Assembly: GCA_900661335.1 (NCBI GenBank)
Contig: CAACVY010000012.1
Location: 1 to 44,184, forward strand
Reading direction: 5' to 3'
From: an uncultured bacterium
GTDB taxonomy: Bacteria; Verrucomicrobiota; Kiritimatiellia; PWTM01
DNA: 44,184 nucleotides
The notes below the pieces were generated by a model. The model saw only the letters and a program-made list of their open reading frames with translations. It made no database searches and was not told the DNA's origin. A program made the translations under genes and the position numbers. Positions within the stretch are counted from its first letter, which is position 1. Every line of letters starts with the position of its first letter. Shown in pieces: positions 13,512 through 15,218 of the stretch.

Positions 13512-15218
13512 ATGGACAACATGAAGAGACTCACCGTCGCGATAGCCCAAATCAATTCGGTTGTCGGCGCGCTAGTTCCAAACGCGGATAAGATTCTCCG
13601 GTTTGCACTCCAAGCGCGGGCCGCCGGAGCGAACGTGGCGGTGTTTCCTGCGATGAGCCTCACAGGACACCCGCTGGAGGATCTCGTGCTGAAACCTCAT
13701 TTCCTCGAAGACTGCGGAGGAGAGATCGCGCGGTTGGCCGTGCGGTTGCCGCCGGAGATGATGGTCGTACTAGGTGCGCCCCAGCGCCCGACGGATCCGG
13801 GGGCTCGTCCGTGGCATGCCGCCTTCGTGTTCCAAGGCGGATTCGTGCGAGGGGTTGCGCGGAAGATCCGATTGTCCCGAGTGGGCTGTGACGAGGCTCG
13901 CGTTTTTGCCCCCGGAAGCCATCCCACCGTGGTCCGCGTGAGCGGAAGCGCCATTGGCATTCATCTCGGCGAGGACTCGTGGGCCGTTCAGGAGCTCCCC
14001 TGCAAAGCACTCGGAGGCGGACGCTTGGATTTGCTACTCAATTTGTCTGCCTCGCCCTACCATCGCGGGCAAGTCACCCAACGGCGCGCGGCGATTGCCG
14101 CCATTGCACGCGCAGTGGATGCGCCGGTCGTGTTTTGCAACTTGGTCGGCGGGCAGGACGAGCTGGTGTTCGATGGCGGCAGCTTTGCGATGGCTCCTGG
14201 AGGCGAGTGGTTGGCCCGAGCCAAACGCTTCGAAGAGGACCTATGTATTGTGGACCTCCCGGTTCGCTACCGTGCCGAAGACGTACAGTTCGCCGAGGCC
14301 GACGTGATCGAGTTACCGGAGCTCGTGGACGGCACGCCGTTCCCCCAGCGATCGTGGGCGGAATGGCCGGACGGGCCGGAGGAAGTCTACCGTGCGCTCG
14401 TGCTAGGGTTGCAGGACTACGTCAACAAGAATGGGTTTCGCAAAGTCGTCATCGGCCTGAGTGGCGGCATCGACTCGGCCCTGGTGGCCGTGTTGGCCTG
14501 CGACGCCCTCGGGCCGGAACGAGTCGTCGGAGTCTCCATGCCCACACGGTTCAGTTCGGCGGAAACTCGCGCGGATGCCGCCGCATTGGCGCGAAATTTG
14601 GGAATCGAATTCCGCGAAATCTCGATTGACCGGCTCTTCCAAGCAGCTTTGGACGAACTGGGGCCCCAATGGCCGGGCCGGGAGCCCGACACCACCGAAG
14701 AGAACCTGCAGGCTCGCATCCGCGGAGTGGTGCTGATGGCCTTGTCGAATAAGTTCGGATGGTTGGTGCTCGCCACGGGTAACAAAAGTGAAGTGGCCAC
14801 AGGGTATTGCACGCTGTACGGCGATACCGTGGGAGGTTTCGCTGTGTTGAAGGACGTGCCGAAGACGCTCGTCTACGAACTAACCCGTTGGCGTAACGCG
14901 CGGCAAGCTGTGATACCTCAAGGTTGCTTGGAACGCGCACCCAGCGCAGAGCTCCGCCCGGGGCAGAAGGACACGGACTCGCTGCCCCCCTACGAGGTGC
15001 TGGACCCAATTCTCGAACGCTACGTCGAGCAGGACCAATCGTTTGATCAAATCGTTCGCGCCGGGTTCGATCCGATGGTTGTTCGCCGGGTCATTCGAAT
15101 GGTGGACGGCAGCGAGTACAAGCGCCGCCAGGGCGCGCCGGGCGTGAAAATCACGCCGCGTGCGTTCGGCCAAGACCGGCGCATGCCGATCACCAACCTC
15201 TACCAAGAACGGCTTTGA
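13512..15218 (+). CDS. nadE: NAD+ synthetase with N-terminal nitrilase-like (glutaminase) domain; glutaminase triad degenerate
   Basis: synthetase SGGIDSALVAVLACDALG, LATGNKSEVATGYCTLYGDTVGGFAVLKDVPKTLVY; N-domain LLNLSASPYHRGQ, GGQDELVFDGGSF. Confidence 0.92.
   Translation: MDNMKRLTVAIAQINSVVGALVPNADKILRFALQARAAGANVAVFPAMSLTGHPLEDLVLKPHFLEDCGGEIARLAVRLPPEMMVVLGAPQRPTDPGARPWHAAFVFQGGFVRGVARKIRLSRVGCDEARVFAPGSHPTVVRVSGSAIGIHLGEDSWAVQELPCKALGGGRLDLLLNLSASPYHRGQVTQRRAAIAAIARAVDAPVVFCNLVGGQDELVFDGGSFAMAPGGEWLARAKRFEEDLCIVDLPVRYRAEDVQFAEADVIELPELVDGTPFPQRSWAEWPDGPEEVYRALVLGLQDYVNKNGFRKVVIGLSGGIDSALVAVLACDALGPERVVGVSMPTRFSSAETRADAAALARNLGIEFREISIDRLFQAALDELGPQWPGREPDTTEENLQARIRGVVLMALSNKFGWLVLATGNKSEVATGYCTLYGDTVGGFAVLKDVPKTLVYELTRWRNARQAVIPQGCLERAPSAELRPGQKDTDSLPPYEVLDPILERYVEQDQSFDQIVRAGFDPMVVRRVIRMVDGSEYKRRQGAPGVKITPRAFGQDRRMPITNLYQERL

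Follow-up and report, generated by a model that had tools for sequence, protein, structure and literature searches.

The window analysed in this study, a stretch of 44,184 nucleotides of DNA from an uncultured bacterium of the class Kiritimatiellia, encodes a two-domain NAD+ synthetase (NadE) which, in view of its sequence, is highly probable to be a functional, ammonia-dependent enzyme that has secondarily lost the use of glutamine and that carries a dead but folded glutaminase domain. A glutaminase domain devoid of its chemistry and joined to an intact synthetase had been proposed in an original prediction made from the DNA letters, and it stands as the best reading of the protein after comparison with its homologues. 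The damage turned out to be wider than listed there and includes the replacements Tyr53His and Pro55Leu and changes in a loop at residues 122-126.

Organization of the nadE gene

The gene is located on the forward strand and its translation reads through as 568 amino acids with zero internal stops. Both PF00795 and PF02540 exceed their respective cut-offs, which places the protein among the fused two-domain NadEs of the short type (type F), and its nearest solved structures, in matches of sequence and structure alike, are 3n05, 4f4h and 5kha. Unlike the single-domain enzymes of type N, it contains an N-terminal domain (N-domain), which is predicted to be folded. Although the window NadE thus belongs to the fused family by sequence, the label 'glutamine-dependent' would be unfit to describe its function. 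The following features were assigned, with residue roles transferred by motif from the NadE of M. tuberculosis:

13512-15218, + strand: nadE, two-domain NAD+ synthetase of the short (NF010588 / PRK13981) type, 568 aa (NF010588 651 bits, cut-off 479)
13524-14276, + strand: N-terminal nitrilase-like (CN_hydrolase) glutaminase domain, predicted to be catalytically dead (PF00795, residues 8-251, 65.5 bits)
13650-13652, + strand: Ala47, codon GCG, replacing the catalytic Glu (M. tuberculosis Glu52)
13668-13670, + strand: His53, codon CAC, replacing a conserved Tyr (M. tuberculosis Tyr58, tunnel constriction 1)
13863-13865, + strand: Lys118, codon AAG, retained catalytic Lys
13872-13895, + strand: LSRVGCDE, eroded equivalent of LPNYGVFDE (YRE loop: glutamine contact, tunnel entrance), shorter by one codon
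13968-13970, + strand: Gly153, codon GGC, replacing the nucleophile Cys (M. tuberculosis Cys176)
14373-15215, + strand: C-terminal NAD synthetase domain, intact (PF02540, residues 293-540, 247.7 bits)
14460-14477, + strand: SGGIDS, ATP-pyrophosphatase loop, intact
14772-14792, + strand: ATGNKSE motif of the synthetase active site, intact

The glutaminase active site

In the NadE of M. tuberculosis, the catalytic triad consists of Glu52, Cys176 and Lys121, and two more parts are required: Tyr58, found in the ammonia tunnel at constriction 1, and the YRE loop with Tyr127, which touches the ligand of the glutaminase site, and Phe130 and Glu132, which form the bottleneck of the tunnel (PMC6946656). 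The Cys-Glu-Lys triad of the window NadE is reduced to the lysine. Both predicted replacements, of Cys by Gly in HLGEDSW and of Glu by Ala in VFPAMSLTG, are encoded as described, at sites where the four closest homologues contain TGC and either GAG or GAA, and so is the Lys of ARKIRL, which is retained. A different placement of the two lost residues, which would have spoken against the original prediction, was examined in an alignment of 100 homologues, where no substitute Glu or Cys was found at either motif. Besides the triad, the loop is altered: it reads KIRLSRVGCDE instead of KMLLPNYGVFDE found in relatives, and the stretch from Lys118 to Phe132 comprises 15 residues compared to 16 in all 84 of the 84 Cys-bearing homologues. 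The replacement of the tunnel Tyr by His53, in conjunction with the eroded and shorter loop, suggests that besides the chemistry also the binding of glutamine has very probably been lost. Given that Lys118, Glu128, the ED of the Cys motif and the predicted fold are all kept, the pocket may have a different activity.

The distribution of the damage was evaluated at near-invariant positions, defined as those conserved in at least 95% of 73 homologues with intact Cys and loop, which comprise 51 sites in the N-domain and 98 in the synthetase domain (S-domain). Nine of the 51 N-domain sites are violated in the window NadE (E47A, Y53H, P55L, N102H, P122S, N123R, Y124V, V126C and C153G), compared to a mean of 0.26 and a maximum of 2 in intact homologues. 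The synthetase domain, in agreement with its predicted integrity, departs at a single site (M439T) and keeps the other 97. With this reference set, which was selected on Cys and loop, the difference between 9/51 and 1/98 corresponds to a Fisher p of 0.0003, and because of this selection the test was repeated with all 84 Cys-bearing homologues as reference, where 6/49 sites of the N-domain and 1/92 of the S-domain are violated (Fisher p 0.007). Since eight of the nine N-domain violations fall in three active-site motifs (p 0.005), the damage is, as judged from these counts, concentrated at the glutaminase site beyond chance.

Descent and constraint

In a tree calculated from the S-domain only, the window NadE clusters with the principal NadEs of G001, G002 and G003, three genomes of the same genus (SH-aLRT 97), and all three orthologues keep Glu, Lys and Cys. 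The orthologue of G003, which is the closest, is intact throughout; the loop is partly eroded in G001 (ALASYGVYDE) and G002 (ALAAYGVYDE), latter of which contains a Gln after the Cys. Because the same-genus orthologues keep these residues, the loss of the triad can be regarded as lineage-specific and as recent on the scale of the family. The question of whether relatives share the two replacements, as raised in the original prediction, thus finds a divided answer: the same-genus proteins do not, the Gly recurs in other lineages, and Ala47 is the sole loss of the Glu among the 100 homologues.

Measured against G003, the N-domain has a dN/dS of about 0.2 and the S-domain one of 0.09, both being values at high dS that average over the time preceding the loss. 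With respect to the nearest relatives, dN/dS is close to 0.2 in the N-domain and ranges from 0.09 to 0.15 in the S-domain. Branch lengths of the N-domain relative to those of the S-domain give a median ratio of 1.52 in Cys-less lineages compared to 1.67 in intact ones, and the idea that the N-domain decays faster once the glutaminase is dead was rejected on these grounds. A structure prediction from the single sequence, with a pLDDT of 34.9, was redone with an alignment of 29 sequences, and the resulting AlphaFold2 model (pLDDT 84.5, pTM 0.88) shows values mostly above 90 in the N-domain and lower values in the eroded loop, and has a two-domain NadE as its best match in the PDB. The N-domain seems to have been preserved as a folded entity, and the earlier proposal that it is kept for structure is plausible in light of the predicted fold, the low dN/dS and a rate ratio that is not raised.

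Recurrence in other lineages

The dead-glutaminase pattern is not unique to the window NadE. Among 84,980 species genomes scanned for short NadEs whose codon at the Cys site begins with a base other than T, 23 matches in genome contigs were obtained, of which 15 were due to chance and eight were true cases, with seven of these eight genomes containing a single NadE. The Cys is replaced by Gly in six cases (Kiritimatiellae STCSWMC_75, Verrucomicrobia UBA1418, Nitrospira ACE_NIT12, two Dehalococcoidia and one Bipolaricaulota) and by Arg in two (L060 and L069). The loop is degraded in all six Gly cases and in neither of the two Arg cases, and latter were set aside as support because the complete loop leaves room for recent mutations or sequence errors. 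The scan, which saw first-base changes only, undercounts, since a match had to contain both a CAG codon and a motif of the GGQD type. Searches of the class and of Nitrospira have added a clade of three Nitrospira genomes with Gly and a loop that is shorter by two residues, and a fourth Cys-less Nitrospira protein. In two further genomes of the same class (G088 and G089; L144 and L145), NadEs of about 516 residues have the loop deleted, including the catalytic Lys. By parsimony on the synthetase tree, the Cys was lost in at least eight changes, or seven when counting Gly only, and within the alignment set a shortened or deleted loop is confined to Cys-less proteins. In a sign test relating loss of the Cys to loss of the loop in five supported pairs, 3.7 on average point in the same direction and never any in the opposite one, a sample too small for a firm conclusion. 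What recurs, as far as these sequences allow to judge, is mostly the change from Cys to Gly accompanied by an eroded or shortened loop. No earlier description of a natural inactivation of the NadE glutaminase domain was found in a search of the open-access literature.

Source of nitrogen

The assembly that contains the window comprises 2.63 Mb in 137 contigs and is 68.3% complete. Within this assembly, a search for a second NadE and for a stand-alone glutaminase subunit (types C and R), as had been suggested alongside the prediction, has retrieved neither. The sole other CN_hydrolase is part of a 541-residue open reading frame that does not adjoin nadE and that, judged by its size and family, most likely encodes Lnt. 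Since the other nitrilase gene is Lnt-like and no second NadE was found, we favour free NH3 among the two donors that had been considered initially, whereas a glutaminase partner is retained as an option because 32% of the genome are missing. The missing third poses the main risk to the ammonia reading, as a second NadE could be hidden there. The use of ammonia would be in line with the finding that two-domain NadEs accept it as a substrate in its free form (PMC6946656, PMC3376133).

The sole amt-like gene found in the assembly is disrupted, as it contains a frameshift and TAA stops in frame (L174:3369-4620; G000 contig 18, 52395-53556), and one intact copy each is found in G001, G002 and G003. 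In another family of the class, amt is absent from three genomes with a dead site (G051, G091, G092) and present in four with a live site. However, an Amt/Rh gene is kept despite a dead site in G043, G088 and Nitrospira G063, G365 and G372, and two live-site genomes are also without amt. Loss of amt does thus not accompany every loss of the Cys, which counts against our reading, and the association between both losses (Fisher p 0.017) is suggestive only, because it was obtained from a hand-picked comparison set and ignores relatedness and genome completeness.

Both G001 (L035:4440-12493) and G002 (L036:2178-10258) contain a second, Cys-bearing NadE in a tight row of genes that encode a type III glutamine synthetase, a GAF/sigma-54 activator and a PPDK_N-type protein, likely a nitrogen-regulated NAD synthetase operon. 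The S-domain of this second NadE departs at 12-13 near-invariant sites. The genome of G003, which is 96% complete, encodes a single NadE. In the window's genome, a second nadE beside glutamine synthetase III was considered and rejected, since this locus (L163:5897-10088) is of another, nadE-free type, where the glutamine synthetase gene adjoins a fused homocysteine S-methyltransferase / MTHFR in an arrangement common to G002 and G003.

Discussion

Our results suggest a mechanism in which, upon loss of Cys, Glu, tunnel Tyr and loop, the N-domain can presumably no longer bind or hydrolyse glutamine, whereas the synthetase domain would still adenylate nicotinic acid adenine dinucleotide and amidate the adenylated intermediate with free NH3 from the cell. 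The N-domain would stay as a folded structural part, as implied by its constraint and predicted fold, and the loss of glutamine use would fit an ammonia-replete life, where also high-affinity ammonium uptake would have been lost.

It is very hard to attribute the two altered codons to errors in sequencing or assembly. A single base separates each of the two altered triad codons from its normal form and the source assembly is fragmented, but nine violations and an in-frame codon deletion cluster at the active site of an otherwise conserved protein, long reading frames around nadE are intact, and the same pattern is found in unrelated genomes. It is this concentration of damage at the glutaminase site that makes error an unlikely source. 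Hardly more credible is a decaying pseudogene in an organism that makes its NAD otherwise: although the entire protein has evolved faster than those of its genus, with an S-domain end branch of 0.22 compared to 0.06-0.09, its 568 codons form an intact frame, its synthetase has kept nearly all near-invariant sites at the low dN/dS described above, and no other NAD synthetase was found in the assembly.

We also consider it improbable, if to a lesser extent, that the missing third of the genome codes for an intact second NadE or a stand-alone glutaminase subunit which covers the use of glutamine and provides ammonia in trans, with the window copy being ammonia-using or subordinate. The incompleteness of the assembly, the second NadE of G001 and G002 next to glutamine synthetase III and a sigma-54 activator, and the two-subunit NAD synthetases that De Ingeniis et al. 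have found in other bacteria (PMC3376133) would be compatible with such an arrangement; against it speak the single NadE in the nearly complete genome of the closest orthologue, the nadE-free type of the glutamine synthetase III locus and the predominance of single NadEs in the genomes from the Cys scan. Somewhat more weight, while still on the unlikely side, can be given to a re-use of the N-domain, whose emptied pocket might constitute an open NH3 vestibule leading to the old tunnel or a regulatory site for a small ligand. In that case, one would point to the dominance of Gly among the Cys replacements, to the lost Tyr and loop residues, whose counterparts form the tightest part of the tunnel in solved structures (PMC6946656), and to the constraint on the N-domain. 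However, the excess of Gly may be mutational, because Gly lies one first-base step from Cys, the type of change to which the scan was limited, and the loop degrades differently lineage by lineage.

As an ammonia-dependent enzyme with a dead glutaminase domain, the window NadE would stand between known systems. It shares the domain order, length, fold and intact synthetase of the glutamine-dependent short dimeric NadEs (3n05, 4f4h, 5kha; NF010588), but only the Lys of their triad and neither their glutamine-binding loop nor the tunnel Tyr. With the single-domain NH3-dependent NadEs (1xng, 2e18; type N of De Ingeniis et al.) it has in common a homologous synthetase domain and, as predicted, free ammonia as donor, but it still contains the N-domain of the fused type. 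The nucleophile was also removed in the engineered M. tuberculosis mutant C176A (3sdb, 3seq, 3sez, 3szg), where the domain is still folded; in contrast to this laboratory mutant, the loss in the window NadE is natural and extends to Glu, Tyr and loop. The closest working analogy is provided by vertebrate CPS1, whose fused ancestral glutaminase domain is kept but dead due to replacement of the catalytic Cys, with the enzyme taking free ammonia (PMC4655335), although its glutaminase is unrelated (class I) and its reaction different, which restricts the analogy to the mechanism.

According to De Ingeniis et al., all fused NAD synthetases characterised before use glutamine, and the history of the family is one of glutaminase acquisition followed by gene loss and transfer, without inactivation in place (PMC3376133). 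Natural forms with a dead glutaminase would show that a fused NadE can return to ammonia while keeping the domain, in the way that CPS1 has done in the urea cycle. A natural set of enzymes of this kind would allow the structural contribution of the nitrilase domain to be told apart from its catalytic one and the point of ammonia entry to be tested. Such forms also illustrate that family membership alone is the wrong basis for calling such nadE genes glutamine-dependent. As a tentative generalization, which we regard as possible rather than probable, glutaminase loss in fused NadEs might constitute a recurrent route back to ammonia, taken separately in several phyla by lineages of ammonia-rich niches, mostly by a change from Cys to Gly with erosion or shortening of the loop and often with loss of amt, where the emptied pocket would become the NH3 entrance to the old tunnel.

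Further variants of the glutaminase domain

Other NadEs illustrate different extents of degradation. The most degraded glutaminase domains among those examined are found in G088 and G089, where the Cys motif reads KVGQSQWW and KVAQSRWW, respectively. In G043 (L032), the motif is replaced by LISDEVCS, with its genus mates G105 and G106 keeping ICEDSW. A graded series is observed in Nitrospira (L117, L118, L120, L123), where the Cys is kept and both the LVNHG loop and the Trp that follows the Cys motif are lost; these loop-eroded proteins stand next to the Gly clade with its two-residue-shorter loop.
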